A stretch of 64,000 nt of DNA from Brachybacterium nesterenkovii. GTDB taxonomy: Bacteria > Actinomycetota > Actinomycetes > Actinomycetales > Dermabacteraceae. Within the stretch, counting starts at the first letter, position 1; each line of letters begins with the position of its first letter. The translations under genes and the position numbers were made by a program. This document shows positions 14,321 to 34,238 of the stretch, in pieces. Below the pieces are notes generated by a model. That model did not search any database and was not told the origin of the DNA. It saw only the letters and a list, made by a program, of their open reading frames with translations. The stretch lies in assembly GCF_900163655.1 (NCBI RefSeq), contig NZ_FWFG01000092.1:1-64000 (forward strand), in the 5' to 3' direction.

Positions 14321-15148
14321 ATGTCCTCGGACCCCTCGACCTGGCCGCGCGCGCCCTATCCCGCAGCGCCCCGGCGCGGCCGGGGCGACGCCGTGCACCG
14401 CTGGGACGATGCCGCCGTCGGCCGGGAGCGAGGGCTCACCGACGCCGACACCGCGCCGCCGGGCCTCTCGGGCTTCGCGCGCCCGTCGGCCCTGATGAGC
14501 CCGGCAGATCCTGAGCGCACACCGGGCCCCGTCTCCCCCGCCCCGCGCCCGATCCGCTCGGTGCTGTTCGTGTGCACCGGCAACGTGTGCCGCTCCCCGC
14601 TGGCCGAGCGGCTCCTCGCGCACCGCGCCCCGCACCTCACCATCGCCAGCCGCGGCACGTTCTCCCTGCAGGGCTCCGCGATGGACGCCGACATGGCCGC
14701 CGAACTCGCCGAGCGGGGCGGCGATGCCGCGGGCTTCCGCTCCCGGCAGCTCACCGCCGCGGACCTCGACGCCGATCTGATCCTCGCGATGGGGCCCGAG
14801 CATCTCGACGTGATCGGGGACGAGGTGCCCGCGGCGCGGCGCCGGGCCGGGCTGCTCGGCCACGTCGGCGACCTCGCGGCCCTCGTCGCACCGCCCCGCG
14901 CTGGACGCTCGCATGGCATGCCCGCCCTTGCCGCACAGTTCGACGACGAGGATCAGCGCAGTGCACCGCCCCGGACGCTGACGACGGCCGATGTCGCCGC
15001 CTGGTCCCGCGCCCGCCGCACCGCCGACGGCACCATCCCGGACCCGTACCGCAAGGGGCGGGCCGCGGCCGCGCGCTCGGCCGCCCGCATCGACGAGCAG
15101 CTGCGCCTGCTGCTCCCCGTTCTCCCCTCCCCCGGAGGCCCCGCATGA
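14321..15148 (+). CDS. Low-molecular-weight protein-tyrosine phosphatase with N-terminal extension
   Basis: 275 aa; the family is usually about 150-160. The P-loop CTGNVCR has Cys85 and Arg91, and the general acid is D241 in IPDPYRKG. About 75 polar residues precede the catalytic fold, and the middle carries an Arg/Pro-rich stretch. ATG 14321 is preferred because of the leaderless promoter; M59 is an alternative. Such phosphatases remove phosphate from BY-kinases in capsule systems, and a BY-kinase is encoded at 41405-43195, so this is its probable counterpart (inference). It overlaps the next gene by four bases. Confidence 0.88.
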   Translation: MSSDPSTWPRAPYPAAPRRGRGDAVHRWDDAAVGRERGLTDADTAPPGLSGFARPSALMSPADPERTPGPVSPAPRPIRSVLFVCTGNVCRSPLAERLLAHRAPHLTIASRGTFSLQGSAMDADMAAELAERGGDAAGFRSRQLTAADLDADLILAMGPEHLDVIGDEVPAARRRAGLLGHVGDLAALVAPPRAGRSHGMPALAAQFDDEDQRSAPPRTLTTADVAAWSRARRTADGTIPDPYRKGRAAAARSAARIDEQLRLLLPVLPSPGGPA

Positions 15149-16317
15149 GCCCGCTCGTCGCCGCACCGATCCTGCTGACCTTCACCCTGCTCGTCTCGGG
15201 CCTCGCCAAGATCGGCGACCCCCGGGCGACGGAGGACGCGATGGTCTCCCTGCGCACGCCCGCGCGGCCGCTGCACCGGCTGGGGGCGCTGCTGCTCGCC
15301 CCGGGCGAGCTGCTCCTCGCCGTCGGCCTGTGGATCCCGATCGTGCCGGTGCAGGTGGCAGTCGCGGCCGCGACGCTCGCGCTGATGCTCGCGTACCTGG
15401 TGATCATCGTGCGGGCGCTCGGCTTCGACGAGCCGGTGCACTGCTCGTGCTTCGGGACGCTGGGGTCGCCGAACGTGTCGCGGGCGAGCGCGCTGCGCAA
15501 CGTGACGCTGAGCCTGCTGGGCGTCGCCGGGGTGGTCTCCGCGGCCACCGGTGCCACGGCCGCGGCGGTGCTCACGGCCTGCCCGCTGCTGCTGGCGTGG
15601 ACGCTGGCGCTGGGTGCCGCCGTGCTGCTGACGGCGTTCACGCTGGGCGGGACGGAGAAGGATGAGGAGGCGCCGACGGCGGCCCCGCTCGGCTCGCACG
15701 CACCCGCGCGGGCAGCCTCCGCCACGACCGGCGCGCACGACGACGCCTCCGAAGGCGGCGTACGGCGCGACGACGCCGCGGGAAGCGCGGGCGCGGCGCA
15801 CGACGTGGCGGCGGAGGACAACGCGGGGAGCGCGGGCGCGGCGGAGGACGACGAGCTCGACTACCTGCGCACGCCGATCCCCCCGGGCCTGCTGCGCGAT
15901 GCCGACGGGGAGCTCGTTCCGCTGCGCTCGTTCACGGCGGGGCGCGCGGTGCTGCTCATCTGGGTGAACCCGGGGTGCGGGCCGTGCGAGCGCATCCTCA
16001 CCGCGCTGCCCGCGTGGAGGGAGCGCCTCGATCCCCTGGTCGCGGTGCACATGGTGCTGCCGCGGCCGCTCGCGGGCATCGCACAGCCCGATCTCGAGCG
16101 CCTGGGGCCGGGCCCGATGGAGGACGTGCACTCCACCCTCGCCGAGACGCTGTCGATGCGCGGCACGCCGGCGGCGGTGCTGCTGGGGGCCGACGGCATG
16201 CTCGCGGGCGGCCCCGTGGCCGGCGGCGACGAGGTCTCGGACTTCGTCGAGGAGATCATCGAGCAGCTGGATGCCGCGCGCGTCACGCAGACGGGCCCGG
16301 ATCGCACCGCTCGATGA
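15145..16317 (+). CDS. MauE-like membrane protein fused to thioredoxin domain
   Basis: 390 aa. Residues 1-170 are four or more membrane helices with the MauE/DoxX-type pattern and a CSCFG pair (C100, C102). Then comes a 65-residue Ala/Asp-rich linker with the repeated segment AGSAGAA. The C-terminal thioredoxin fold has CGPC at 278-281 and the cis-Pro region RGTPAA. The fusion suggests electron transfer through the membrane to an outside thioredoxin; partner proteins are not known. Coupled to the phosphatase (ATGA). Its 3' end overlaps the convergent HprK-like gene by 35 bases. Confidence 0.82.
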   Translation: MSPLVAAPILLTFTLLVSGLAKIGDPRATEDAMVSLRTPARPLHRLGALLLAPGELLLAVGLWIPIVPVQVAVAAATLALMLAYLVIIVRALGFDEPVHCSCFGTLGSPNVSRASALRNVTLSLLGVAGVVSAATGATAAAVLTACPLLLAWTLALGAAVLLTAFTLGGTEKDEEAPTAAPLGSHAPARAASATTGAHDDASEGGVRRDDAAGSAGAAHDVAAEDNAGSAGAAEDDELDYLRTPIPPGLLRDADGELVPLRSFTAGRAVLLIWVNPGCGPCERILTALPAWRERLDPLVAVHMVLPRPLAGIAQPDLERLGPGPMEDVHSTLAETLSMRGTPAAVLLGADGMLAGGPVAGGDEVSDFVEEIIEQLDAARVTQTGPDRTAR

Positions 16318-17680
16318 GGTGCAGCTCCGCGAGGAGCCCCATGCACTCCTCGACGTCCTCGAACGCGGGGCGCGGGCCGTCGAGGTCCAGGCGGGCCGCG
16401 ACGGTCCTCGCGGCGGCGGGCCCCTGCGAAACGAGGTCGAGCCAGACGAGAGCGGCACCGCCGCCGAGCGTGATGAGATCCCCCTGCCGCAGCACGAGCA
16501 CGCCCTGCTCCACCACGAGGGCCTCGACGAACGAGGCCGCCTGCCAGCACGGCCCCGCCCCGGCAGGGTCCGGGCCGTCCGGGTCCGTCCCGTCGGCGTG
16601 CGCGCGCCGGGCCGACGGCACGGGGGTCGGCTCGGCTCCGCTGGGCGCAGGCTCGGTATCGTTGCGGGTCGGCTCGGCTCCGCTGGGCGCAGGCTCGGTA
16701 TCGCTGCGGGCGGGCGATGCTTCGGCGTCGACCGTCGGGGGCTCGGCCGGCCGCTCCGACCGCGGAGCGACGGCCTCCCAGGGCTCGCGCAGCGCCGGCG
16801 GCGGATCCGCCAGCAGCGCGTGCATGTCCTCCGCCTCGGCGTAGCGCAGCTCGAGCGCCCCGCCGACGTCGCCCAGCAGCGTCGCCAGGCGGGTGAGCGG
16901 CCGCGGCACTCTCCAGACGGATGACGACTGCGCGATCAGCTGCGGGAGCGCCTCGGCCAGCGGCAGGCGCCGCGACGACGCGTCGGCGCCGCGCTCCTCG
17001 ACGCGACCCAGGAGCACGACGGCATCCGGCCGCGCCGCCCCCGCTCCCGCCACGAGGCCGAGCTCCGGCAGCGCGACGTCGGTCTTCGACGACTCGCCTC
17101 CGTCCGGGTCCGGCTCCCCCACGATAGAGACCGGCTTCGGGTAGGCGGTGACCGCGAACGTCTCCGGGTCGATCACGGTCAGCTCATCGGTCAGGTAGGT
17201 CCCACCGCGTCCCAGCGTCCGCGCGGCCGTGGATTTGCCCGCGCCGGACGGGCCCACCAGCAGCACGCACCCGAGCTGCGGGGTCGCGACGGCCGCGGCG
17301 TGCAGGAGCAGGCGGTGCCCGATGAGGGCGCCGATCACCTCGCGCGTCACCAGCCCGGACACGGCGTAGGCGGCGCCGGGACCGGGATCGACCGCACGCG
17401 CCCCCAGCGATGCCGCATCCTCCTCGCGCGCCACCAGGCGGAGCACCCGAGGACCGTCCTCTTCGTCCCCTTCCGGAGCCGTCCCGGAGCGCGGAGCGGC
17501 GCCGCGATGCCCCGTTCCGGGGGTGCGCTGGGCCGCACCGTCCGCGGACACGGCGCTCTGCTCGACGACGACCGGCGCCCACAGCTTGCGCAGCTCGTCC
17601 ATCAGCGCGGCGAGCGCGGGCGTGCCCTCGAGGGCGAGGGGGCCGCCGGGAAGGTCCAGGACGATCCGCTCAGGCGTCAT
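16283..17680 (-). CDS. HprK-like kinase with C-terminal PqqD-like module
   Basis: 465 aa. Residues 104-170 match the HPr-kinase-like P-loop fold of RiPP and exopolysaccharide cassettes: LLHAAAV near 125, Walker A GPSGAGKST at 143-151, and LTDE near 163. A variable acidic linker with a repeated 14-residue unit follows (about 320-375). The last 90 residues (QGDLITLGGGAALVW onward) look like a winged-helix PqqD fold, so a second PqqD module is built in. Translation is coupled to the free PqqD gene (11-base overlap). The kinase target is unknown, and no HPr or leader peptide is seen nearby. It converges with, and overlaps, the MauE-thioredoxin gene. Confidence 0.75.
   Translation of the reverse strand: MTPERIVLDLPGGPLALEGTPALAALMDELRKLWAPVVVEQSAVSADGAAQRTPGTGHRGAAPRSGTAPEGDEEDGPRVLRLVAREEDAASLGARAVDPGPGAAYAVSGLVTREVIGALIGHRLLLHAAAVATPQLGCVLLVGPSGAGKSTAARTLGRGGTYLTDELTVIDPETFAVTAYPKPVSIVGEPDPDGGESSKTDVALPELGLVAGAGAARPDAVVLLGRVEERGADASSRRLPLAEALPQLIAQSSSVWRVPRPLTRLATLLGDVGGALELRYAEAEDMHALLADPPPALREPWEAVAPRSERPAEPPTVDAEASPARSDTEPAPSGAEPTRNDTEPAPSGAEPTPVPSARRAHADGTDPDGPDPAGAGPCWQAASFVEALVVEQGVLVLRQGDLITLGGGAALVWLDLVSQGPAAARTVAARLDLDGPRPAFEDVEECMGLLAELHLIERCDPGPSA
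16626..16709. repeat. 42-bp tandem duplication inside the HprK-like gene
   Basis: Two copies with period 42 share 36 identical bases (16626-16661 and 16668-16703). They encode the repeated NDTEPAPSGAEPT-type linker, so the duplication keeps the frame. Confidence 0.8.
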
Positions 17681-17957
17681 CGGCGACCGCCTCGAGCACC
17701 CCGTGCTCGGCGAGGTCGACCAGATGGGCCGTGACGATCGCCTCCGCGTCCGTGGGGACGTCGGCGACGAGCCCGCGCAGGCCCTCGAGCACCTCGTGGG
17801 ACGTCAGGGGCGACCCGGCCGCGGTAAGGACGTCGACGACCAGCGGGGAGATGCCCTGCAGCAGCATGATCGGTCCGGACGGGAGCGGCGCGACCCACGC
17901 CTCGTCCTCGACGCGGTCGATCACCACGTCGCCGAGCCGGTAGCGGTGCGCGGTCAC
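17670..17957 (-). CDS. PqqD-like small protein
   Basis: 95 aa. The start RYRLGDVVIDRVEDEAW, the middle LLQGISPLVVDVL and the C-terminal helix pair (EGLRGLVADVPTDAE, VTAHLVDLAEHGVL) fit the three-helix winged fold of PqqD, a peptide-binding partner in RiPP-type systems. The GTG start overlaps the manA stop (GTGA), and it runs into the HprK-like gene by 11 bases. Homology is by pattern only; alternatives among small wHTH proteins remain possible. Confidence 0.6.
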   Translation of the reverse strand: MTAHRYRLGDVVIDRVEDEAWVAPLPSGPIMLLQGISPLVVDVLTAAGSPLTSHEVLEGLRGLVADVPTDAEAIVTAHLVDLAEHGVLEAVADDA

Positions 17958-19159
17958 GGGACGCTCGCCTGCACGATCCGACCGCGTCCGCCCACGCGGA
18001 CGGCCCCCGCGGAGGCCGGGACGAACAGTGCCCGCCCGCGGCCGATCCGTCGGCGCCCGCCCGCGGACTCCACAAGGGCCTCCCCGTCGATGCCCAGCAG
18101 GATCCGCGGCCCCGACCCGGGGATCGGATGCCGGGGCTGGAAGCTGCCCTGACCGTCGTCCAGCGTCGTCAGCGACAGCTCGAAGTCATCGACGGGCGCG
18201 TAGTAGGCGACGGTGCGCTCCGTGAGCCGCTCGGGGGCCACGCGCAGCGGCGGCGCGGCGACCACCGAGACGCACTGGAGCATCTCGTCGGCGTCGACCT
18301 TCTTGCCGGTCAGGCCCGCCCGCAGCACGTTGTCGCTCGCGGCCATGACCTCCACGGCCAGGCCCGACAGGTAGGAGTGGATGGCGCCGGCGGGCACGTG
18401 CATCGCCTCCCCCGGATGCAGCGTCACGGGGTTCAGCAGCAGCGCCGCCACGACGCCCCCGTCGCCCGGGAAGTGCTCGTGCAGCATCGCGACGGTGCGG
18501 TCGATGCGCGGCGAGGGTGACTCCCCGGCCGCGAAGCGGGCGCGGCAGGCCTCCGCGACGGCGGCGATGAGCTCGGGGTCCGGGCGCATCGAGGGCGCGA
18601 CCAGGGTGCGGAACGCGGCACGCATCCCGTGGGCCGTCGGATGCTCCACGAGGAGCGCCCGGAGACGGTCGGTGAGCTCGGTGTCGAGTCCGGTGAGGAT
18701 CGCGGCCGCGCGGCGCGGGGTCCGGAAGCCGCACAGCGCCTCGAAGCGCTCGAGGGCCACGACCATCTCGGGCTTGTGGTTGTCGTCACGGTAGTTGCGC
18801 CGGGGCGAGTCGAGGGCCAGCCCGGCGGCGTTCTCCGCCGCGAACGACTCGCGGGCGTGCTCGCGCGAGGGATGCACCTGCAGCGAGAGCGGGCGCGCCG
18901 GGGCGATGAGCTTGAGCAGGTACGGCAGGCGGCCCGAGAACGAGCGGTGCACGGGATCGCCGAGCATGCGCCGCGGGTCCTGGGCGATCGCGGCGTCGAG
19001 ACCGAGGCCCAGGGCATCGACGCGCGCGGGAGCGAGCGGGTGGGCGCCGAACCACACCTCGGCCCACGCGTCTCCATCGGCCTCGCGGTCCAGGAAGCGC
19101 GGAAGCGCATCGGCGGATCCCCACGCGTAGCGCTGGATCCGGCCGTCAAGCTCCCACAT
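17954..19159 (-). CDS. manA: Mannose-6-phosphate isomerase, class I
   Basis: 401 aa, typical length. It interconverts mannose-6-P and fructose-6-P, feeding GDP-mannose and derived sugars. Zinc-site segments are present: SLQVHPSREHA near 93, DNHKPEM near 123 and the cupin VPAGAIHSYLSG near 265. GGAGG lies nine bases before the ATG at 19159, with a TAGGAT -10 box further up. Its stop overlaps the PqqD-like start, giving a three-gene operon manA-pqqD-hprK. This links the kinase/PqqD pair to sugar metabolism of the glycan locus. Confidence 0.92.
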   Translation of the reverse strand: MWELDGRIQRYAWGSADALPRFLDREADGDAWAEVWFGAHPLAPARVDALGLGLDAAIAQDPRRMLGDPVHRSFSGRLPYLLKLIAPARPLSLQVHPSREHARESFAAENAAGLALDSPRRNYRDDNHKPEMVVALERFEALCGFRTPRRAAAILTGLDTELTDRLRALLVEHPTAHGMRAAFRTLVAPSMRPDPELIAAVAEACRARFAAGESPSPRIDRTVAMLHEHFPGDGGVVAALLLNPVTLHPGEAMHVPAGAIHSYLSGLAVEVMAASDNVLRAGLTGKKVDADEMLQCVSVVAAPPLRVAPERLTERTVAYYAPVDDFELSLTTLDDGQGSFQPRHPIPGSGPRILLGIDGEALVESAGGRRRIGRGRALFVPASAGAVRVGGRGRIVQASVP

Positions 19160-19712
19160 CGCGCCCCCCTCCGTCGGACCGTCCCGCCATCCTAGGTTCG
19201 CCGTCGCCGGGCGTCGTTGCGCGCGCGAGGCCCGGGGCGTCGGGCCGAGGATCGTCGGCCCGACGGGCGTGGCCGCGCCGCGCATCGGCGCGCCGGGCGG
19301 CCCGCCGCGCGAGCAGACCCAGGCCGACGCCCAGGACGGCGCCCAGCGTGTTGGCGAGGACGTCCCCGAGGTCGGGCTCCCGCGTACCGAGACTCATCTG
19401 GTAGAGCTCGACGCCGACGGACCCGGCCGCGGCGAGCGCCGCCCACCACCAGGTGGGGCGCAGCACGGCGAGCGCGGCCAGCACGGGCACGAACACGAGC
19501 ACGTTCATGACCGCCGCGAACTGCTCGGGGGTGGTGGTTCCCATGAGCCCGAGGGGCTTGGTGACGGCGATCCACACCGCGACGTTCAGGCGATTGATCG
19601 CCCATCCGTTCGGAGCCAGCAGGAGCGCGGCGCCCGCCGGCACGGCGAGGACGAGCACGCCTGCGGCCAGGGTCCTGAGCCGACGGGTCGCGGGTCCGGT
19701 CGCGCGCGCCAC
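19146..19712 (-). CDS. VanZ-like membrane protein
   Basis: 188 aa with about four hydrophobic helices in residues 12-135 and the VanZ hallmark pattern VLVFVPVLAALAVL ... ELYQMSLGTREPDLGDVLANTLGAVLG. VanZ proteins are membrane proteins of unclear role, found with cell-wall and glycan genes. The GTG start is three bases after the sugar-transferase stop, so the two are co-transcribed. The basic, Arg-rich tail overlaps the manA start by 14 bases. Confidence 0.78.
   Translation of the reverse strand: MARATGPATRRLRTLAAGVLVLAVPAGAALLLAPNGWAINRLNVAVWIAVTKPLGLMGTTTPEQFAAVMNVLVFVPVLAALAVLRPTWWWAALAAAGSVGVELYQMSLGTREPDLGDVLANTLGAVLGVGLGLLARRAARRADARRGHARRADDPRPDAPGLARATTPGDGEPRMAGRSDGGGRDVGA
19189..19194 (-). 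promoter_or_regulatory. Candidate -10 box for manA-pqqD-hprK
   Basis: TAGGAT on the minus strand, 29 bases before the manA ATG, with the GGAGG ribosome site in between. It lies inside the end of the VanZ gene. Confidence 0.4.
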
Positions 19713-19715
19713 GGG

Positions 19716-21281
19716 TCAGTACGCCCCGTCGCTCGTGAGGACGGCACGCACAGTGCGGACCATGATCTGCACGTCCTGGGCGAACGACCAGTTGTCGACG
19801 TAGTACATGTCCAGGCGCACGGTCTCCGCCCAGGACAGGTCGCTGCGGCCCGACACCTGCCACAGCCCGGTGATGCCCGGTCGCACGGTGAGGCGTCGCA
19901 GGGCGTCCTGGTCATAGGCCGCGACCTCGCGGGGCAGGGCGGGGCGCGGGCCCACCAGGCTCATGTCGCCGCGCAGCACGTTGATGAGCTGGGGCAGCTC
20001 GTCCATCGAGTAGCGGCGCAGGATCCGGCCGGGCCGCGTGATCCGCGGGTCGTCGGACATCTTGAACAGCACGTCGTTGCCGCGGTCGATCTCCTCGTCC
20101 CGCAAGGCGGCCAGGCGGGACTCCGCGTCGGGCACCATCGAGCGGAACTTGAGGAACTCGAAGGGGACGCCGTCGCGGCCCACCCGGACCTGGCGGAAGA
20201 GGACCGGGCCGCCGTCCGTGGCCTTGATGACGACGGCGATCACGGCGAGCAGCGGGGCGGCGACGACGAGCAGCAGCGCGCTCGCGGCGACGTCGAACAT
20301 CCGCTTGGACAGCCGCAGCGCGTCGCGCGAGCGCGGGAGGTCGAGGTGGACGAGCGGGAGGCCGGCGACGGGGCGCATCCGCATGCGGTCGCTCGAGATC
20401 TCCGTGACGGCCGGCACCACGATCACATCGATGTCCAGGCTCTCGAGCTGCCACGCGGTGCGACGGAACTCCTCGTCGGAGGCGTCGGAGCCGGCGGCGA
20501 ACAGCAGAACGGCGGGCTGGACGCTGCGCACGACGTCCAGCAGGTCGCTCTCGACCCCCATCACGGGGATGCCCTCCCGCGAGGTCGCGTCCTCGTAGCG
20601 CTCGGGGACGACGGCGCCGACGACGTCGTAGCCGAGCCACTGCTCGCGCGCGAGCGTGCGGGCGATCGAGTCGATGTAGGGCAGGGCCCCGACGACGAGC
20701 ACGCGCGAGCGCATCCGGCCTCTCCGGCGCAGCCAGCCGATCACGCGCCGCATGACCAGGCGGTCCAGGAGCAGCAGGAGGGTGCCGACGATGAACAGCA
20801 CGACGAAGAAGACTCGCGAGAGCTGGACACCGGAGAGGTAGAGGACCGTGGCGACGATGCCGGCGGCACCGAGGCTCGAGCGCAGGAGGTTGCGGAAGAT
20901 CTCGGGGCCCGAGGCGAGGAGGCGCACGTCGTAGCCGCCGAACAGCGCGATCGCGCCGATCCAGCCGATCCCGATGACCAGCGCGGCCTCGGCGACCGCG
21001 GCGGACAGGTCGCCCGCGCGCCCGAGGGACGGAGTCGACTGGCGCGCGAGGTAGGCCAGGGCGATCGCCAGGAGCAGCTGGAGCACGTCGGCGATCACGA
21101 GGATCGTGCGCTTCCAGCGGCGGGTCCAGCGCTGGCGGCCCGCATAGGCGCTGGTCCTGGGGGCGTGGACCGCGATCGCCTGCCCATCGGCGTCGAGCCG
21201 GTCGAGCTCGCCGAGAGGAGCGCCGTGACCGGAGGGGCGCGGGGCCCTCGAGGGCGCGCCGGATCGGGATCCGCGCGACAT
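19716..21281 (-). CDS. Initiating polyprenyl-phosphate sugar-phosphate transferase (WbaP/CpsE type)
   Basis: 521 aa. Residues 45-185 hold four or five membrane helices. A nucleotide-binding-like domain (VLVVGALPYIDS) follows, then a membrane re-entrant helix near 330-350. The C-terminal phosphoglycosyltransferase domain carries FKFRSM, DELPQLINVLRGDMS, LVGPRP and PGITGLWQVSGRS. It would transfer a sugar phosphate from an NDP-sugar to undecaprenyl phosphate, the first step of repeat-unit assembly. ATG 21281 is chosen because GGGAGG lies five bases upstream; a GTG two codons earlier is possible. VanZ follows directly. Confidence 0.92.
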   Translation of the reverse strand: MSRGSRSGAPSRAPRPSGHGAPLGELDRLDADGQAIAVHAPRTSAYAGRQRWTRRWKRTILVIADVLQLLLAIALAYLARQSTPSLGRAGDLSAAVAEAALVIGIGWIGAIALFGGYDVRLLASGPEIFRNLLRSSLGAAGIVATVLYLSGVQLSRVFFVVLFIVGTLLLLLDRLVMRRVIGWLRRRGRMRSRVLVVGALPYIDSIARTLAREQWLGYDVVGAVVPERYEDATSREGIPVMGVESDLLDVVRSVQPAVLLFAAGSDASDEEFRRTAWQLESLDIDVIVVPAVTEISSDRMRMRPVAGLPLVHLDLPRSRDALRLSKRMFDVAASALLLVVAAPLLAVIAVVIKATDGGPVLFRQVRVGRDGVPFEFLKFRSMVPDAESRLAALRDEEIDRGNDVLFKMSDDPRITRPGRILRRYSMDELPQLINVLRGDMSLVGPRPALPREVAAYDQDALRRLTVRPGITGLWQVSGRSDLSWAETVRLDMYYVDNWSFAQDVQIMVRTVRAVLTSDGAY

Positions 21282-21343
21282 GTCCACCTCCCGTCGAGCG
21301 CCTGCGGCTTGAGTGCCCGTCGGCGGCGCCGACGGTCGCTCCG

Positions 21344-21349
21344 ACCCTA
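21344..21349 (-). promoter_or_regulatory. Candidate -10 box for the sugar-transferase gene
   Basis: TAGGGT on the minus strand, about 60 bases before the ATG, in the 173-base gap left after the acyltransferase remnant. Confidence 0.35.
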
Positions 21350-21454
21350 TCGACCGAACTGTCCTCCTCGGACTCGGACGATCAGAACGATCAGGACGGA
21401 CCCGACATCATGATCCTCGGGCCCGACGTCCGACGCGGGTGCCCGGCGCCGCGC

Positions 21455-21728
21455 TCAGGAGGACAGTCCGCGCTCCCGGAGCTCGTCGAGGGCGCTGTCC
21501 CACGCCTGGGAGGCCGCGCCCGGCGGCGAGCCAGCCGCCGTCGCGCACCGCGACGCCGCGTCCGATCCGGATCGCCTCGACGCCCTGGAGCATGCGCGGG
21601 GCGACGATCACGCTGCCCTCGCCGAGGGTGCCGAACGCGCGGCGGTGCACGAGCGCGGTGACGAGCGCGCCGCGGTGCCAGCGCACGGACGAGCCCAGCG
21701 TGGACAGGCGGTTCCAGACGTCGACCAT
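21455..21728 (-). pseudogene. Hexapeptide acyltransferase remnant with internal deletion
   Basis: The first 65 residues (from MVDVWNRLSTL to VEAIRIGRGVAVRDGGWLA) match the N-terminal part of WcaF-like left-handed beta-helix acyltransferases, ending just where the hexapeptide coils should begin. The coils are missing. In another frame the DNA then reads a plausible protein end (WDSALDELRERGLSS, stop at 21455). This fits an out-of-frame internal deletion joining head and tail. It lies three bases after the GT2 gene stop. Non-functional as it stands. Confidence 0.65.
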
Positions 21729-21731
21729 GGG

Positions 21732-22709
21732 TCAGATCCTCTCAGCGGCGGTCAGGGGACGCAGGCCGCAGCCGATGAGCGGGCGCGGCAGGAGGGCGGG
21801 CGCGGCGAAGCGGATCCGGCCCAGGAGCAGGCCGGAAGCGGTCGCGAACCGGGACACGAGATCAGCACGGGACGCGCGTCCCGGCCGCACGACCGCGAGC
21901 GCGGCCGCCGCGAGGGCGCGCGCGGGCTCGAGGATCCAGCGCCCGCCGCGGGTCGACGGCGTCCTCCCCCACAGGCCGTGGCGCGTACACAGCTGGGCGT
22001 GCGCGAAGCCCGCGCGCAGGTGGGCCCGCGCGCTCACGGAGCCCGGGGGCCGCTGCCGGTAGGCGATCGAGACGACCTTGGAGACGTCGACGGCGTGCCC
22101 CGCGCGCGTGAGGCGGATCGCGAGGTCGTTGTCCTCGCCGCCCCACGGGAACGCGGCATCCATACCGCCGATCTCCCGAGCGGTCCCGCGGCGGATGCCG
22201 AACACGCCGCCGCACAGGATCGGGTAGCCGGGGCTCTCGGGGACGGGCTCGGACCAGTCGGGCGTGCCGGGGGCGATACGGCGGGCGGCGGGCAGGCCCC
22301 CGGCGAGCTCCTCGGGGGCGATGGGCACCGCACTGCCGGAGAACACGGGCCGTCGCAGGAGGGTGCGATGCGTGTTGAGGACCGCGTACGGATCCGCGGA
22401 GTCGTCGGCGTCGAGGAACAGCAAGTGCTCGGCGCGCGCCGCGCCGATGCCCACGTTGCGGGCGTACGCGGCACCGGGGCGCTCCGGCGCTTGGACCACC
22501 CGGATGTCGAGCTCCTCGCGGAAGGGCTCGATCGCGCCCGCGAGGTCGTCGGAGGAGCGGTTGTCGACGACGACCACCTCGAAGCGCGGCGCATCGATCT
22601 GCGCGACGAGGGAGGCGAGCTGGAGGCCGACCACGTCCGCGCCGTCGTGGACGGGGATGATCACGGAGAGCTCCGGGGCGCCGTCAGGCGCTGCGTTGGG
22701 CAACGGCAT
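21732..22709 (-). CDS. GT2 family glycosyltransferase
   Basis: 325 aa GT-A enzyme: SVIIPVHDGADVV at the start, VVVDNRSSDD, metal site FLDADDS and GGEDNDLAIRL on the acceptor side. The region near 255-300 is a hydrophobic amphipathic tail typical of membrane-associated members. Transcribed away from the GT11-like gene across a 119-base promoter gap. Similar over its length to the GT2 enzyme at 23749-24735 (shared DDLAG and APxFEV blocks), so probably an old duplication. Donor and acceptor unknown. Confidence 0.88.
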   Translation of the reverse strand: MPLPNAAPDGAPELSVIIPVHDGADVVGLQLASLVAQIDAPRFEVVVVDNRSSDDLAGAIEPFREELDIRVVQAPERPGAAYARNVGIGAARAEHLLFLDADDSADPYAVLNTHRTLLRRPVFSGSAVPIAPEELAGGLPAARRIAPGTPDWSEPVPESPGYPILCGGVFGIRRGTAREIGGMDAAFPWGGEDNDLAIRLTRAGHAVDVSKVVSIAYRQRPPGSVSARAHLRAGFAHAQLCTRHGLWGRTPSTRGGRWILEPARALAAAALAVVRPGRASRADLVSRFATASGLLLGRIRFAAPALLPRPLIGCGLRPLTAAERI

Positions 22710-22766
22710 GGCTCTCCCGCGGGGACGTCGGCTCGAGGACCGAACCGGACGATCCGGTCGCCGCCC

Positions 22767-22772
22767 AGGATA
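22767..22772 (-). promoter_or_regulatory. Candidate -10 box for the GT2 gene
   Basis: TATCCT on the minus strand, about 58 bases before the ATG at 22709. Confidence 0.35.
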
Positions 22773-22816
22773 CCGAGATCGGGCCGTCGCCGGGGTCGCC
22801 GCGCATCACCGCCGCG

Positions 22817-22822
22817 TATCGT
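22817..22822 (+). promoter_or_regulatory. -10 box, leaderless start of the GT11-like gene
   Basis: TATCGT followed by six bases and the GTG at 22829. Confidence 0.5.
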
Positions 22823-22828
22823 GGCCGC

Positions 22829-23758
22829 GTGACCCGGACCCCCCCGCCTGCCCCGCCGGGCTGGACCCCTCCCCCGCGCGAGCGCACGACGCCCAGGACG
22901 CACGCGCGCGCCCTGGGCAGGGGCGCCGCGGCGCCCGTCCTCGCCGCGATCCGCCGGCGCAGCGGCCGCACGATCCTGTGGACGCCGCCGTCCCTCGGCG
23001 GCGGCAACCACCTGTACATGTGGCTGTGGGCGTGGGAGCAGCGCCGCGCGGGGCACGAGGCGGCGGTCCTGCTCCAACCGGGGATGGAGGCGTGGATCGC
23101 CATGTTCCCCGCCCTCGGGGAGCTGACGGTGGACCGGGCGGCGGTGCCGTTCACCGCCCAGCGCCGGGAGATCTGGCACCAAGGCTTCGACGAGTTCGGC
23201 CAGGACACCCTCGACGGCTTCCTCGACGACGCGATCCTGGGCTCATCCGCCTTCGCGGAGCTGCTGGCCGCCGCGGACGCCGAGCGGGCGCCCCTCACGC
23301 TCAACATCCGCCGCGGCGACTACTACACCGATGCGACGTTCCGCCGCCGCTACGGGATGGACATCCGCGCCTATGCGCTCGCGGCGCTCGAGGCCGCGGG
23401 AGCCGATCCGGCCGACGCCTTCGGCCTCCAGGTCGTCTCGGACGACCCCGCATGGTGCGCCGACCAGGTCCCCGCCTGGCTGCCGGCGGCCCGCGTGCGG
23501 ATCGCGCCCGCCGACGAGGGCCCGTTCGGCAACCTCGCGCGCCTCGCGGCGAGCGAGCGCCTGATCCTCGCGAACTCGACGTTCTCCTACTGGGCCGGCT
23601 ACCTCAAGAACCGATGGGACGCGCGCGAGGGCCGAGAGTCCCTGGTCGTGGCGCCCCGCTTCCACGTGCGCACGATCGGCGAGGGCCGGGCCTGGCAGCT
23701 CGCGCCCGCCTGGACGGTCGTCGAGAACGCCGAGCAGGAGATGGTCCGTCAGCCCTGA
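22829..23758 (+). CDS. GT11-like (alpha-1,2-fucosyltransferase family) enzyme
   Basis: 309 aa. Two family marks are clear: LNIRRGDYY near residues 158-166 (the HxRRGDY GDP-binding motif) and LANSTFSYWAGYL near 246-258. An early GGGNHLYMWLWAWEQRR resembles the GLGNQMFQYA start of the family. It would transfer a deoxyhexose, perhaps fucose, from a GDP-sugar. No GDP-fucose synthesis genes are seen in the window. It is the only + strand gene within the capsule locus, and its end overlaps the convergent GT2 gene by ten bases. Confidence 0.68.
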   Translation: MTRTPPPAPPGWTPPPRERTTPRTHARALGRGAAAPVLAAIRRRSGRTILWTPPSLGGGNHLYMWLWAWEQRRAGHEAAVLLQPGMEAWIAMFPALGELTVDRAAVPFTAQRREIWHQGFDEFGQDTLDGFLDDAILGSSAFAELLAAADAERAPLTLNIRRGDYYTDATFRRRYGMDIRAYALAALEAAGADPADAFGLQVVSDDPAWCADQVPAWLPAARVRIAPADEGPFGNLARLAASERLILANSTFSYWAGYLKNRWDAREGRESLVVAPRFHVRTIGEGRAWQLAPAWTVVENAEQEMVRQP

Positions 23759-24735
23759 ACGTCCGGGGCCCCGCCGGTGCGCGCCGCGGCCGCCCGGTGC
23801 TCCAGGGCCTCGGGCCGGGCGCGGTCGATGAGCTCGGGCTCCGGTGTGCGCCCGCCGCGGTAGCGCAGCTGGCCCTCGAGGTTGCCCACGAGGCCTCCTG
23901 TGCGCCGCGCCCATTCGAGGCGCCCCGCGTGCGTTCCCCGCACGCGCAGCCAGTCGCGGGGCGCGAGCGCGAGGTGCCCGAGCGTCCACTTCAGGGACAT
24001 GCCCCGCAGCGGCCGGGTGCCCTGGGTGCGGAGGACCGTGATGGTGCGCGTGCGCGCATATCCGCGATGCTGGCGGAACAGCGCCCGGGCGCCGGAGCGC
24101 AGGCGGTAGTGGACCACCGCGTCCTCGGACACCGCGATCGGGTGGCCCGCTTCCTGGGCGCGCCACGAGATGTCCGTGTCCTCGTCCCCGCCGCGGTAGG
24201 AGTTGTCGAAGCCGCCCAGGGCGATGAAGTCCTCGCGCCGCATCCCGAGGTTCGAGCCGTAGACGAACGGCAGATAGCCCTGGACCGGGTAGGGGCGCAG
24301 CAGCGACGGCGCGTCCTCACCCGGATCGGGGCGCCAGACCTCTTCGGCGTTGAGGCGCGCGAGCTCCATCGGCCCCGTCGCCAGGACGCTCGCCGCGTCC
24401 AGCTCGTCGGTCAGCGCACGCACCCAGGTGGGCGAGACCACGTCGTCCTGGTCGCAGAACAGCACGTGCTCGCCGCGCGCCAGCAGCGCGCCGAGGTTGC
24501 GCGCGTAGCACTGGCCCTGGTGGGCGCGGGCGGGCAGGATCCGCACCTTCTCCCCGAGGAACGGCGCGATCGTCCCCGCGAGGTCGTCGGTCGAGTTGTT
24601 GTCCATCACGAGGACCTCGAACGGCGGCGCGTCCTCCTGGGCCGCGAGGGCGGCGAGCTGCGCGGGCAGCGTCGCGGTGCCGTCGAACACCGCGATGACG
24701 ACGCTCGCGACGGGACGCTCCGGGGCAGGCGTCAT
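23749..24735 (-). CDS. GT2 family glycosyltransferase
   Basis: 328 aa GT-A enzyme: SVVIAVFDGTATL, VMDNNSTDD, metal site FCDQDDV and GGDEDTDISWRA. ATG 24735 is chosen because GAGGAGG lies five bases upstream; an ATG six codons earlier lies inside the upstream gene. It overlaps the upstream GT4-like coding region only through that ribosome site (11-base gap from stop to start). Last gene of the ABC-GT4-GT2 run. Confidence 0.88.
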   Translation of the reverse strand: MTPAPERPVASVVIAVFDGTATLPAQLAALAAQEDAPPFEVLVMDNNSTDDLAGTIAPFLGEKVRILPARAHQGQCYARNLGALLARGEHVLFCDQDDVVSPTWVRALTDELDAASVLATGPMELARLNAEEVWRPDPGEDAPSLLRPYPVQGYLPFVYGSNLGMRREDFIALGGFDNSYRGGDEDTDISWRAQEAGHPIAVSEDAVVHYRLRSGARALFRQHRGYARTRTITVLRTQGTRPLRGMSLKWTLGHLALAPRDWLRVRGTHAGRLEWARRTGGLVGNLEGQLRYRGGRTPEPELIDRARPEALEHRAAAARTGGAPDVQG

Positions 24736-24745
24736 CGGGGCCTCC

Positions 24746-25831
24746 TCAGGCATAGACGTGCTCGAGCTCGGGGCGCGGGCCGCGCAGCGAGTCGGGGAAG
24801 GTCACGCGGGTCCCCTCCGGCAGCTTGCTCTCGAGCAGCGGGGGGATGTGCTGGCTGCCGCGCAGAGCGCGCCAGGCCTCGCGCGGCTCCCGTCGGCGCA
24901 GATAGGACAGCGCCTTCGTGGTCCGCCGGGATGTGAGCGGCCCGCCGGCGCGGCGCAGGGCGGCGCCTGCCAGGCGCCGTGCCGGGCCGATTCCGCGGGC
25001 GAGCTCGAGGTAGCGGTCGACGACGACGGCGGGTGCGTGCTCGGCCGCGATGAGCCCGCGAAGCCGGCGCGCCGGGTCGTAGCCGTCGACGAGATGGCGG
25101 GCGAGCTCCTCGGGCGTCGGCCAGGACCCGTCGAGGAGACCCGCGTACGAGTCGGCCCGCAGGCGCCGGATGCTCGCCTCCTCGACGTAGCCCTTGGCCC
25201 CGAGGAAGTCCATGACGTAGACGTTGCGCTCGCACGCGAGGGCCTCGAGGACGCCGCGGCCGGATGTGATGACGATGTCCGCCTCGTCGATCGGCCCCGC
25301 GGGGTCGTCGACCGCGGTGGGCCCGCCGACGATCCGCAGGTCGAGGCCGGCGATCGAGCAGGCCTCCTCGATGATCGGCCGCGCCCGCCCCTGCTTGTTC
25401 GACAGCAGCAGCACGGAGCGCGGGGTCTCGCGCACGGGATGCCGCTCGGCGAACTGCTCGAGGTCCACGGGGTTGCGGATGACCGTCGCGGGCAAGGGGA
25501 TGTGCGCGGCGGTGAGCTCGTCGACCGCCGCGTAGGCATCGGCTCCCGGCGGGACCCACTCGGGCTCCGGCGTGAAGCCGTGGGCCGTGTAGAGGCAGCG
25601 CCCCATCCGCACGCGGCGCGCAAGGGCGAACGCGTCATTGTGGTTGAGGATCCCGAGGTCGTAGGCGTCGCCGTCCCGGTGCTCCCGCAGCTGCGGGTAG
25701 AGCGTGTTGCCGCGGGCCGTGAGGACCGCGACGTCGTGCCCGCGGGCCTCGAGCTCGGCGGCGATCGTCGCGACCCAGCGCTGCGTGCCCGCCGGCGAGA
25801 TCAGGTCGGTGTTGCTCAGCAGGATGCGCAC
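24746..25831 (-). CDS. GT4-like glycosyltransferase
   Basis: 361 aa GT-B type. The N-terminal Rossmann half opens ILLSNTDLISPAGTQRWV and shows ELEARGHDVAVLTARG; the C-terminal half has SVLLLSNKQGRARPIIE and a donor-site helix VITSGRGVLEALACERNVYV. GTG start with GAGG six bases upstream, eight bases after the ABC transporter stop. Probably retaining, from the family, with unknown sugar. Confidence 0.75.
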   Translation of the reverse strand: MRILLSNTDLISPAGTQRWVATIAAELEARGHDVAVLTARGNTLYPQLREHRDGDAYDLGILNHNDAFALARRVRMGRCLYTAHGFTPEPEWVPPGADAYAAVDELTAAHIPLPATVIRNPVDLEQFAERHPVRETPRSVLLLSNKQGRARPIIEEACSIAGLDLRIVGGPTAVDDPAGPIDEADIVITSGRGVLEALACERNVYVMDFLGAKGYVEEASIRRLRADSYAGLLDGSWPTPEELARHLVDGYDPARRLRGLIAAEHAPAVVVDRYLELARGIGPARRLAGAALRRAGGPLTSRRTTKALSYLRRREPREAWRALRGSQHIPPLLESKLPEGTRVTFPDSLRGPRPELEHVYA

Positions 25832-25839
25832 AGGGCCCC

Positions 25840-27684
25840 TCAGCCGATCTCGCCGAGCTCGACGAGGCGCGCGAACTCCTCGTCCGTCGCGCGCAGACGG
25901 GCCATCGTGCCACGCGACTGCAGGCGCCCGCGGGAGAAGAACAGGATCTCGTCGGCGTTCTTGACGGTCGAGAGGCGGTGGGCGATGACGATCACCGTGA
26001 TCTCGCCGTGCAGGGCCTCGATCGTCGCGGTGATCTCGTGCTCGGTCTCGTTGTCGAGGGCGCTCGTGGCCTCGTCGAGGATCAGCACGCTCGGCCGGGC
26101 GTACAGGGCGCGGGCGATGCCGATGCGCTGGGCCTGGCCGCCCGAGACCCGCGCCCCGGAATCCCCGATGACGGTGTCGAGGCCCTCGGGCAGGCCGTCC
26201 ACGAAGGAGCGCAGGCGCGCCCGATCGATGACGTCGTCCAGCAGCGCAGCGTCCACCTCGTCGGCGGGCACCGCGAACGTGATGAGGTCGCGGACCGTGG
26301 CCTCCCACAGGTACACCTTCTGGGAGACCATCGCGACGTCCGCGAGCCAGCTGCGGGGGTGCTCGGCGACATCGAGGCCGCCGACGGTGACCGAGCCCTC
26401 CGTCGCGTACAGCAGCCCGGCGAGGATGTCGGCGAACGTCGTCTTGCCGGCGCCGGAGGAGCCGACGAGCGCGACGGTGCTGCCGCGCGCGATGGTGACC
26501 GACACGTCCGTGAGCACGTTCTGCGTCGAGTCCGGGTAGTGGAAACCCAGGCGGTCGACGACGATGTCCGCGCGCGGGAGGGGGATGATCCGCTCGTCGC
26601 GGGACCGGCTGCGGGCCTCGTCGGCGTCGAGCTCGTCGATCTGCTCGACGAGCAGCGCGAGGTGCGGGCGCCCACCGCGCACCGTGTTGAACGTGGCCAC
26701 GAGGCGGTTCAGGGCGGGGATGACGCGGATGCTGGCAGCCGCGAACGCCGCGAGGAGGCTGAACGCGAGCGCCTGCGGCTGCGTGGCGAACAGGACGAGG
26801 GCCACCGCCATGATCCCGGCGATCATGACGATCTCCAGGAGGTACTTGGGCAGCTCGCCGAGCAGGCGCTCGGGCTGCGAGACCGCCGCGTACTGCGCGC
26901 GGTTGCGGGCGAACGCGTCCGCGAACACGTCCTCCCGGCGGAAGACGCGGGTCTCGCGGAAGCCCTCGATCGCCGGGTTGATGTAGCGCCACGCGTCCTT
27001 GTTGTTCTCGAGGTTCACGAGGGCGAAGCGGATCGCCCAGGGCTTGAGGACGCGCGCGATGAGCAGGGCGCTGCCGCCGAAGATGACGAGCGCCAGGAGC
27101 GAGCCCAGCGGCGACAGCACCAGCAGCGTGGCCAGCAGCAGCACGATGGTCAGGGCGTCGACGGCCACCGTGATGTACCCCAGGAGCACGGAGTCGAGCG
27201 CCTGGTGCACCGACCCCGTGACGGTCTGGAGGATCACCGCCTTCGAGCGCTGGCGGTGCGAGGCGTAAGGGGCCATCACATAGCGGCGCAGGAGCGAGGC
27301 CTGCAGCATGTTCGAGGCCCGCGTGGTGATGCCGATGCTCCACCAGCGGATCGCCACGACCGCCGCGTTCTTGACCAGGAACGCGACGGCGACGAACACG
27401 GCGAGCGCCAGGAGGACCCGCTGGCGGTCATCGGTGCCCAGCACGGGCACCACGAAGCGCTCGACCGAGGCGGGCAGCGAGCCGTCGCCCGCGGTCAGCA
27501 TCTGCGTGAGAGGAAGCATCGCGACGACCGCCGCCATGTCCAGCAGGGCCGCGACGAAGCCCGCGACGAGCAGGAACACGATGCGCGGCCCCATGCGCCA
27601 CGGGAGCTGGGCGAGCACGCGGCGCAGCCGGACGACGTCGAGGCCGAGCCCCTCCGGACGTGCTCGGCGATCAGCTTCGGCCAT
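25840..27684 (-). CDS. ABC exporter (fused permease-ATPase)
   Basis: 614 aa half-transporter. Six membrane helices lie in residues 30-330. The ATPase follows with Walker A GSSGAGKTT at 408-416, signature SGGQAQR from 514, Walker B LILDEATSALD and H-loop IAHRLST. GAGAGG lies six bases before the ATG. Such homodimeric exporters in glycan loci move lipids, lipid-linked glycans (PglK-like) or peptides. Substrate cannot be told. First of three genes (ABC, GT4-like, GT2) and 159 bases downstream of the main operon. Confidence 0.88.
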   Translation of the reverse strand: MAEADRRARPEGLGLDVVRLRRVLAQLPWRMGPRIVFLLVAGFVAALLDMAAVVAMLPLTQMLTAGDGSLPASVERFVVPVLGTDDRQRVLLALAVFVAVAFLVKNAAVVAIRWWSIGITTRASNMLQASLLRRYVMAPYASHRQRSKAVILQTVTGSVHQALDSVLLGYITVAVDALTIVLLLATLLVLSPLGSLLALVIFGGSALLIARVLKPWAIRFALVNLENNKDAWRYINPAIEGFRETRVFRREDVFADAFARNRAQYAAVSQPERLLGELPKYLLEIVMIAGIMAVALVLFATQPQALAFSLLAAFAAASIRVIPALNRLVATFNTVRGGRPHLALLVEQIDELDADEARSRSRDERIIPLPRADIVVDRLGFHYPDSTQNVLTDVSVTIARGSTVALVGSSGAGKTTFADILAGLLYATEGSVTVGGLDVAEHPRSWLADVAMVSQKVYLWEATVRDLITFAVPADEVDAALLDDVIDRARLRSFVDGLPEGLDTVIGDSGARVSGGQAQRIGIARALYARPSVLILDEATSALDNETEHEITATIEALHGEITVIVIAHRLSTVKNADEILFFSRGRLQSRGTMARLRATDEEFARLVELGEIG

Positions 27685-27843
27685 GTGTTCCTCTCGTGGG
27701 CGTCGCGGGGTTCGCCCCGGCGACAGGGCGCGGGCGGGCGGGGCACGTCGCGTCGCTGCGCCCAGCGTGGCGCGCCCGGGCCCGGCCGTCCAGCCGGTCG
27801 GGGATTTCCCGTGCCATCTCACGCCGGAGCGCAACGAGGGGCG

Positions 27844-29934
27844 TCACAGCTCCTCGACCGCCTGCCGCAGCGCGGCGATGAAGCGCTCCTCGGAGAATGC
27901 CTCCACGTGCGCGCGGATCGCCGCGCGCGACCACGGGCCCCTCTCCTCGAGCTCGCGGACGGCCGCGACGATCGCCTCCGGCGTCTCCTCGGTGAAGAAC
28001 ACCCCGCTGGTGCCCTCGCGCACCGTGTCGAGGTAGCCGCCCGCGCGCAGCGCGACGACCGGCACGCCGTGCGCCCCGGCCTCGAGCGGGGTGAGGCCGA
28101 AGTCCTCGTGGCTGGCCGCGATGAGCGAGGTCGCGTGCGCGTACGCCCAGCGCATCTGCGCATCGGAGAGGCCCTCGACGAGACGCACGTTCTCCGGCGC
28201 GAGGGCCCGCAGGCGCTCGCCCTCGGGGCCCCGGCCGATCACGAGGAGACGCCGCTCGGGCATCGCGCGGAACGCCTCGATGACCCGGTCGACGTTCTTG
28301 TAGGGCTGGAGGCGGGAGACGACGAGGTCGTGGCCGCCCGCGGAGCCGTCGGGCCCGGCCCAGCCGGCGAGCTCGCCGATCGTCTCCTGCGGGCCGTCGG
28401 CGACATCCGGCGAGAACGGCGGGAACAGGGTCGAGGCGTCGAGGCCGTAGACGCGCCGGATCCGCTCGCGCACGACCGACGAGTTCGCGAGGTACCCGTG
28501 CGCGCGGAGCGCAGCGCGGCGGTCCCAGCGGCGCAGGAGCGGCGCGAGGACCATGAGAACCAGGCGCTTGGGGTCCAGAGGGCCGGCCTGGCCGAGGTAG
28601 TCCTCGGGCAGGTAGAGCCAGCGCGCCGGGGAGTGGCAGTACACGAGGGTGCGCCCGGTCGTCGGGAAGGCATGGGCCCAGCCCGAGGACGAGGCGACGA
28701 CCACGTCGGCATCGATGCGCATCCGCGAGGCCGCGGGCGCGAGCATCAGCAGTGCGAGGCGCGGGTCGCGGCGCAGCGGCCCGATGCGGTCGAGCGGGCT
28801 CGTGCGGATCACGCGGTCGCGGTACTCGGGGTACGTCTGCGAGGGCTCGTAGAACAGCGTGTGGATCTCGGCGTCGGGGAACGCGCGGCAGATCGACAGG
28901 ACGAGGCGCTCGGCGCCGCCGCGCTGGGTCAGGTAGTCGTGGGCGATCACGACGCGGGGGCGGCCCGATGACGACGCGGCAGGCCGATCGGGGGGCGCGG
29001 GCGCCGTCGCGCCCGCGAGCCCCGCCCCCTCGACGACAAGGGCGACGAGCTTCGTGCCGACGGGCCGCGGGACGCGCCCGAGGACGCGGTCGACGAGCCG
29101 CGCGCTGCGCGCGACGTGCTCGGGCGTCCGGTGCGTGCGCGCGACGGCGCCGACGAGAGCGCCCCATACCCCCTCCCCCGCCCTCGGGGGCGCGAGGGGC
29201 GCGTCGGGGTGCAGGCGCGCGAAGGCCGCGCGCGCGGAGCCCGAGGCGAAGGCCTTGGAGGCGCGGGCGACGGCAGTGCGGGCCGGGCCGTGGTGCTCGG
29301 CGTCGGCGCCGGAGACGCGCACGAGGCGCACGCCCGCTGCGTGCAGGCGCCAGCCGTAGTCGACGTCCTCCCAGCCGTAGGCGCGGTACGCGCTGTCGTA
29401 GGGGCCCACGCGCTCCCACACGGCCCGGGCGATCGAGCAGTCGGCCGCCCAGTGGCGCCACAGCGCGTCATCGGGGCATGCGCGCGCCGCGGCGTGCGAG
29501 CGCGCGCCCGCGTCGCGCCCGTAGGCGCGGGCGTAGGGGGCGTCGTCGTGCATGTCGCGCGTGAGGCCGACGACGCCGATGAGCTCGCCGCGCACGGCCG
29601 CATCCGCATGGGCCCCGACATGGGAGGCGACGAACGTCGGCGGGACGCGCAGATCGTCGTCGCAGCGGATCAGGACCTCGCCGCGCGCGGCGGCGAACCC
29701 CGTGTTCAGCGCGGTCACGCGGCCCTCGTTGCGGGGCAGCAGGAGCGGGCGGGCCTCGAACCGGTCCTCGGCCTCGACGAGCGCGACGGAGCCGTCGTCG
29801 ACCCCGTCGACGACCACCACGACCTCGAACGCCGGGGCGCCCGGCTCCTGAGCGGCGAGCGAGTCCAGCAGTCGCGGCAGGCGCTCGGCGCCCCGGTACG
29901 AGGGGACGATGATCGAGGCGGCGGGGGCGGTCAT
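27844..29934 (-). CDS. Bifunctional GT2-GT4 glycosyltransferase fusion
   Basis: 696 aa. The N-terminal 320 residues are a GT2 domain (SIIVPSYRGAERLP, CDDDLRV metal site, GWEDVDYGWRL). The C-terminal part from about 375 is a GT4 domain (VVIAHDYLTQRGGAERLVL, then SRLQPYKNVDRVIEAF and the donor motif EDFGLTPLEAGAHGVPVVA). One chain can thus add two successive sugars. GGAGG lies four bases before the ATG, which overlaps the upstream stop (ATGA). Last gene of the tightly coupled capsule operon. Confidence 0.88.
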   Translation of the reverse strand: MTAPAASIIVPSYRGAERLPRLLDSLAAQEPGAPAFEVVVVVDGVDDGSVALVEAEDRFEARPLLLPRNEGRVTALNTGFAAARGEVLIRCDDDLRVPPTFVASHVGAHADAAVRGELIGVVGLTRDMHDDAPYARAYGRDAGARSHAAARACPDDALWRHWAADCSIARAVWERVGPYDSAYRAYGWEDVDYGWRLHAAGVRLVRVSGADAEHHGPARTAVARASKAFASGSARAAFARLHPDAPLAPPRAGEGVWGALVGAVARTHRTPEHVARSARLVDRVLGRVPRPVGTKLVALVVEGAGLAGATAPAPPDRPAASSSGRPRVVIAHDYLTQRGGAERLVLSICRAFPDAEIHTLFYEPSQTYPEYRDRVIRTSPLDRIGPLRRDPRLALLMLAPAASRMRIDADVVVASSSGWAHAFPTTGRTLVYCHSPARWLYLPEDYLGQAGPLDPKRLVLMVLAPLLRRWDRRAALRAHGYLANSSVVRERIRRVYGLDASTLFPPFSPDVADGPQETIGELAGWAGPDGSAGGHDLVVSRLQPYKNVDRVIEAFRAMPERRLLVIGRGPEGERLRALAPENVRLVEGLSDAQMRWAYAHATSLIAASHEDFGLTPLEAGAHGVPVVALRAGGYLDTVREGTSGVFFTEETPEAIVAAVRELEERGPWSRAAIRAHVEAFSEERFIAALRQAVEEL

Positions 29935-34227: not shown

Positions 34228-34238
34228 GGGGGCCTCCT

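Follow-up and report, generated by a model that had tools for sequence, protein, structure and literature searches.

We analyzed a 64,000-nucleotide stretch of the Brachybacterium nesterenkovii genome (hereafter the window; contig NZ_FWFG01000092.1, positions 1 to 64,000), in which the genes for a free PqqD-like protein and an HprK-like kinase overlap, and an NTP_transf_5 domain fused to a GT4 glycosyltransferase is encoded 12 kb away. We consider it likely that these proteins belong to one tailoring system: a kinase, RRE (RiPP recognition element, from ribosomally synthesized and post-translationally modified peptides) and NTP-transferase set of the type found in linear polyphosphorylated peptide (LPP) and paeninodin clusters, with the leader merged with the twin-arginine translocation (Tat)-like signal of full-size exported proteins. 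Judged by co-occurrence, one serine of these proteins is probably phosphorylated first and then given a second group, which may be a sugar. All the evidence is computational: gene anatomy, predicted folds, a motif and co-occurrence across genomes.

The kinase and NTP_transf_5 operons of related loci contain genes for exported proteins of 150-600 aa with a striking N-terminus. The shared motif is ungapped, spans 27 residues near the protein start and reads RR-x7-W-xx-P-x8-P-xx-A-x-S. It has the character of a Tat signal (SRRx-hydrophobic): S, T or D precedes the RR in about 70% of cases and hydrophobic residues follow, the RR itself being required by the search, and export is predicted. The regular-expression search asked only for RR, W and P at fixed spacing and a following hydrophobic stretch. 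Among the 87 filtered signals, Ser occupies column +26 in 80 and falls within columns 25-28 in all 87, while later columns contain 5-15% Ser; the search pattern itself required no Ser. Loci that were not fetched by the signal profile agree, with Ser within columns 25-28 in 22 of 22. As a control, the remaining RR signals in these loci have Ser at +1 or +2 after AxA in 15 of 77, a rough count that includes some non-signals. From the RR onward, the 75 complete motif proteins measure 191 residues in the median. A hydrophobic tail is absent from all of them, and a single one shows an LPxTG-like match. Three motif proteins are choice-of-anchor G proteins and one is an apparent GMC oxidoreductase, and most of those scanned have no match in Pfam or NCBIfam.

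The position of the serine recalls the LPP precursor LppA. RREs bind [Y/W]xxPx[LVIAF] in leaders, the LppA leader has Y-16 and P-13, and the HprK-like LppK phosphorylates the core Ser3 of LppA, the variants S3A, S3T and S3Y not being phosphorylated (PMC13381572, 2026). If the signals described here are cleaved after A24, W comes to lie at -16, P at -13 and Ser at +2. All 87 signals combine an aromatic-xxP leader with a Ser just after it. They do not contain the LPP precursor consensus YxxPxVLxHQxIxFETxxS; its place is taken by a twin-Arg signal that is hydrophobic and includes W and P.

A profile built from 28 signals of the order to which B. nesterenkovii belongs was then searched across genomes. 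In the home family, motif proteins are present in 18 of 18 genomes with the kinase and 4 of 24 others, the remaining 20 kinase-less genomes having no match at E<=1e-3. Across the order (297 genomes), they occur in 57 of 62 kinase genomes vs 7 of 235 others (Fisher p=5e-47; this and the following p-values disregard relatedness and are descriptive) and in 19 of 20 kinase genera. With the home family set aside, 45 genomes have both, 5 the kinase only, 3 motif proteins only and 218 neither (p=6e-42). At the level of the class the counts are 23 of 24 strong-kinase genomes vs 5 of 371 (p=2e-31), and all 12 strong-kinase genomes of family f36, which belongs to another order outside the training set, encode motif proteins. 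Genomes may contain up to 10 or more of them. Linkage alone cannot account for the association, since in the home family 72 of 87 motif proteins are encoded over 20 kb away from the kinase. Closer arrangements are a substrate-PqqD-kinase operon (L116), NTP_transf_5-PqqD-substrate triplets (L126, L148, L256 and L259) and 5-7 substrates adjoining the kinase (L138 and L139). The original prediction named a peptide or carrier used in glycan export as the target; dispersed exported proteins bearing the WxxP-containing Tat-like signal are the likelier targets. It also stated that no leader peptide is present, which holds within the window and fails for the rest of the genome and for relatives, where leaders appear as the WxxP signals of exported proteins.

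Some genomes have one half of this pairing. Three congeners (G011, G013 and G019; loci L202, L203 and L204) encode motif proteins without the kinase or NTP_transf_5, and these proteins may be orphan substrates or be served by an alternative kinase. Six genomes of family f32 (G371, G397, G437, G469, G477 and G485) lack the WxxP signal and encode relatives of the kinase that match more weakly (E about 1e-16); these probably represent another HprK-like system.

In the window, the open reading frames (ORFs) of manA, the free PqqD-like protein and the kinase overlap end to end as originally described, by 4 bases (GTGA) and 11 bases. The kinase has the P-loop GPSGAGKST and the invariant residues H127, K149 (in GxGKxT), D165-E166, K182 and K199. 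Its AlphaFold model (predicted local distance difference test score, pLDDT, 81.5) is matched by PEPCK and HprK/P in Foldseek, and in both fold and invariant H/K/D residues it corresponds to the HprK-like kinase of LPP systems. A second PqqD-like domain had been proposed at the C-terminus, and residues about 376-460 are indeed confidently predicted to adopt a four-strand, three-helix PqqD-like fold; the module is present on all 14 aligned kinases and is a separate adjacent gene in some relatives.

Profile searches for the two suggested families gave a mixed outcome. The best family-level match of the kinase is HprK_rel_A (TIGR04352, NCBIfam), the family of the HPr-rel-A cassette, yet it scores 34.5 bits against a cut-off of 200 and aligns around the P-loop only. 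Cassettes of this family have PqqD companions. The Pfam model PF05402 (PqqD) matches neither PqqD copy of the window and found nothing in the genome search; the model is too narrow for these proteins. A profile of the free PqqDs, on the other hand, matches solved lasso and LPP RREs, namely TbiB1 5v1u (E=1.5e-6), LppB 9x8z, TfuB1 6jx3 and PbaB1 9x90. The matches to LppB and PbaB1 identify the free protein as a discrete RRE like that of the LPP system, with predicted [Y/W]xxP binding.

The NTP_transf_5 domain, whose presence in the fusion was confirmed by its match to PF14907, retains the invariants K44-G45, D61-x-D63 and D110-x-H112 (numbering from 31898), including the catalytic Asp residues. 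Its fold resembles those of the nucleotidyltransferases MenT1 and ANT(2'') and, more weakly, FKRP, a transferase of polyol phosphate. Family match, catalytic residues and fold together agree with the NTP transferase of the LPP system. In relatives of the same genus, NTP_transf_5 is usually a separate gene, in the opposite direction and just past manA; the copy in the window lies elsewhere in the locus.

The distribution of the enzymes bears out the expectation that they co-occur. Within the genus, 13 of 33 near-complete genomes encode the kinase, which invariably bears its C-terminal PqqD and is almost always accompanied by the free PqqD; kinase, free PqqD and manA keep the same gene order. 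Kinase and NTP_transf_5 are present in the identical 18 of 42 near-complete genomes of the family; G021 has two of each, and G033 retains remnants of both side by side. In the order, 56 of the 62 kinase genomes encode NTP_transf_5, often at a distance or on another contig. Matches to the kinase profile with E of about 1e-6 or weaker are confined to short stretches at the P-loop and were disregarded; a contig scan based on the kinase alignment, reduced to a P-loop pattern, yielded three named loci. An alignment with two misframed rows (A2) contributes to none of the conclusions. The gene manA, originally placed in one operon with the cassette, occurs in 42 of 42 family genomes irrespective of the kinase, and the MauE-thioredoxin control in 16 of 18 kinase genomes vs 19 of 24 others. 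Neither distribution follows that of the kinase, and both genes were therefore rejected as members of the set, manA being a neighbour only.

The two RREs appear to have separate duties. Where NTP_transf_5 lies away from the kinase, a free PqqD often follows it directly (L250, L251, L253, L256-L259 and L263), succeeded in L256 and L259 by a substrate, while the kinase keeps a PqqD of its own, fused or as the next gene (L126, L143, L144 and L146). This arrangement leads us to infer one reader per enzyme, with the fused RRE working for the kinase and the free RRE for the NTP transferase. In 12 free RREs the position of LppB Asp70 is never Asp, which fits a Trp ligand, as Asp70 of LppB bonds Tyr. 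The position of the LppB pocket residue Phe74 is aromatic in 10 of the 12.

The proposed pathway would begin with substrates made with the Tat-like signal. In the cytoplasm, an RRE would bind the WxxP-x-hydrophobic segment of the signal, and the kinase, equipped with its own C-terminal RRE, would phosphorylate the presumed acceptor, the Ser after the AxA signal-peptidase site. NTP_transf_5, with the free RRE, would then attach to this phosphate a second group, which might be a hexose (as with PsmN), a nucleotide or a sugar phosphate. PsmN, annotated as a nucleotidyltransferase, installs one or two hexoses on phosphorylated Ser (PMC9266682). Export, presumably by Tat, and signal cleavage would leave the modified Ser at the N-terminus, the order of these steps being inferred as well. 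One may speculate that through the modified residue the protein becomes linked or anchored to the polysaccharide that this island produces. Phosphorylation of Ser followed by addition of a second group is the best reading because it accommodates the LppA-like geometry, the catalytic residues of NTP_transf_5 and the precedent of PsmN.

The set is contained in a glycan island (Table 1). In those relatives without the kinase that were examined, the surroundings of manA contain neither this island nor the set, and Bac_transf and the glycosyltransferases are missing there as well; this joint absence indicates that the set travels with the island. In the Nocardioides contig NZ_JAFMSY010000001.1 (L030), the same set adjoins Bac_transf and VanZ. 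The original view of a modification set of PqqD and HprK type, connected with NTP_transf_5 and with a glycan locus, stands, as does its separation from standard lasso and phosphotransferase (PTS) systems. Neither of the outcomes named as refuting it appeared, since the PqqD fold is present and kinase and NTP_transf_5 co-occur. A standard lasso system was rejected, as the window ORFs scanned include no macrolactam synthetase and no B2 peptidase; a standard PTS was rejected, no HPr being seen near the kinase (the genome was not searched for HPr). The ABC exporter of the island is a possible counterpart of the MsbA-like LppD.

Table 1. Features of the kinase locus and glycan island (window coordinates)
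Feature	Position	Strand	Basis
manA, mannose-6-phosphate isomerase, operon neighbour outside the system	17954..19159	-	in 42/42 family genomes
Free PqqD-like protein (RRE), 95 aa	17670..17957	-	ORF; role by comparison with relatives
HprK-like kinase (PEPCK/HprK superfamily), 465 aa	16283..17680	-	AlphaFold model, Foldseek, invariant residues
PqqD-like/RRE module at the C-terminus of the kinase (about residues 376-460)	16301..16555	-	predicted fold
NTP_transf_5 domain, forming the N-terminal part of a fusion with GT4 (29931-32153)	31164..31898	-	PF14907 E=1.5e-9
GT4 glycosyltransferase half of the fusion	29931..31163	-	domain scan
MauE-thioredoxin fusion, convergent neighbour, used as control	15145..16317	+	
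ABC exporter (ABC_membrane + ABC_tran) in the glycan island	25840..27834	-	domain scan
Glycan island: VanZ, Bac_transf, glycosyltransferases, NeuB, Wzz/AAA_31; contains the set	19146..43195	.	

Three further features of the island were observed. A VanZ-like gene (19146-19712) adjoins the cassette here and in several congeners and lies between the enzymes in Nocardioides L030 (9381-9791), and is possibly a further member of the set. A GT2-GT4 fusion glycosyltransferase (27844-30144) is conserved next to the ABC exporter in other kinase-positive genomes. A single 954-aa ORF (35338-38202), the start of which is perhaps set too early, combines CBS, NeuB (nonulosonic acid synthase), SAF and xylose-isomerase-like domains.

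Several observations weigh against a single tailoring system acting on the motif proteins. The sole motif protein found in the genome of B. nesterenkovii (contig C36, L201:8993-9865) has an in-frame stop in mid-gene, after '...DSAARDFRD', beyond which the same frame is open; it may be a pseudogene or an assembly error, and the system may be idle in this genome. The free RRE of the window has His at the usual pocket-Phe position (LppB Phe74). No LppS-type (SipW-like) peptidase was seen among the window ORFs scanned, the rest of the genome not having been searched. Part of the signal set was fetched by a profile that includes the Ser column. In the order, 5 genomes have the kinase without motif proteins, and another 7 encode motif proteins but no intact kinase; G033, with its remnants, is among these 7. 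Related genomes, finally, are not independent samples, though the pattern recurs in a second order and within the home genus. This last point leads to the least probable of the alternatives, namely that the association is due to chance or lineage, the WxxP signal being a general trait of Tat signals in these actinobacteria. The genomes are related and the profile was trained within the same order; however, the lack of a match in 20 of 24 kinase-less family genomes, its presence in all 12 strong-kinase genomes outside the training order and the indifferent distribution of MauE-thioredoxin make such an effect highly implausible. Hardly more credible is a regulatory role, in which the HprK-like protein would sense metabolites and phosphorylate a regulator of glycan synthesis, with the PqqD modules as docking domains only. 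The HprK/PEPCK fold and the adjoining genes for a low-molecular-weight protein tyrosine phosphatase (LMW-PTP) and mannose metabolism would suit it, but neither HPr nor a dedicated regulator was seen, and it leaves the match among kinase, NTP_transf_5 and WxxP signals unexplained.

It is also improbable, though less so, that the locus is an ordinary LPP- or lasso-type RiPP cluster modifying a small precursor encoded near the kinase, with the Tat-like proteins sharing only habitat or lineage. Bacillota LPP and paeninodin clusters, likewise found in capsule loci, have these three enzymes, but neither a small precursor nor a cyclase was recognised in the vicinity of the kinase, and motif proteins within the kinase and NTP_transf_5 operons themselves carry the RRE-binding motif and the Ser. 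A different alternative extends the tailoring of exported proteins by making anchoring its main purpose: the proteins would be joined covalently via phospho-Ser to the polysaccharide of the island, in an N-terminal counterpart of PEP-CTERM/exosortase. The idea arises from the glycan setting and the lack of other anchors, and we entertain it tentatively. It is consistent with the joint absence of island and set, the location of the kinase near Wzz-like genes in 18 of 44 loci, the three choice-of-anchor G substrates and the rarity of C-terminal anchors; however, no ligase was identified, many genomes have kinase and NTP_transf_5 apart and distant from recognised glycan genes, and the missing C-terminal anchor also fits plain secretion. 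An N-terminal protein-sorting system of Actinomycetes without earlier description is conceivable, though less likely than not: RREs would read the export signal, kinase and NTP transferase would build a phospho-linked group on the first residues of the mature protein, and this group would hold surface proteins encoded across the genome to the polysaccharide made by the locus.

RRE-guided tailoring is known for small peptides. Were it to act on full-size export signals, this would constitute a new way of marking or anchoring actinobacterial surface proteins, explain orphan HprK/PqqD/NTP_transf_5 cassettes in capsule loci and give context to a class of anonymous secreted proteins. Tailoring of this kind predicts that the mature protein has a modified Ser among its first three residues.

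We found no description of this system in the open literature or NCBIfam (HprK with PqqD; HprK-related kinase; RRE with twin-arginine). To call it undescribed, as the original prediction did, is nevertheless too strong, as a 2026 description of LPP peptides of Bacillota already includes this enzyme trio. The reference cluster, lppA-K-B-S-D-N of Paenibacillus alginolyticus, makes linear polyphosphorylated peptides; LPP core genes include an NTP transferase, lie in capsule loci and are accompanied by the MsbA-like LppD (PMC13381572). Both systems combine an HprK-like kinase, a discrete RRE and an NTP transferase in a capsule-locus setting, and in both the leader has aromatic-xx-P at -16/-13, a single Ser follows soon after it, and substrates are conserved at the N-terminus and variable at the C-terminus. 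In contrast to LPP clusters, the leader here is a hydrophobic twin-Arg export signal, the substrates are full-size proteins, numerous and mostly unlinked, the kinase has a fused second RRE, the hosts are Actinomycetes rather than Bacillota, and no equivalent of the SipW-like peptidase LppS was seen in the window. The tailoring of paeninodin and pseudomycoidin lasso peptides (PadeK, ThcoK and PsmK; PsmN; PMC9266682) likewise employs an HprK-like Ser kinase and a PqqD-type RRE, paeninodin relatives have WxxP leaders, and PsmN shares the NTP_transf_5 annotation; its target, however, is the C-terminal Ser of a small lasso precursor, and there is no macrolactam cyclase here. The PEP-CTERM/EpsH exosortase system resembles the present one in that a wide variety of exported proteins share a short sorting signal and in the phylogenetic-profile pairing of that signal with a processing system and exopolysaccharide genes (PMC1569441), but its signal is C-terminal instead of N-terminal and its enzyme is a membrane transpeptidase instead of a predicted soluble kinase, RRE and transferase. 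The enzyme trio and the RRE logic are already known; the new elements are an export signal in the role of the leader and a clientele of full-size secreted proteins, numerous and unlinked.

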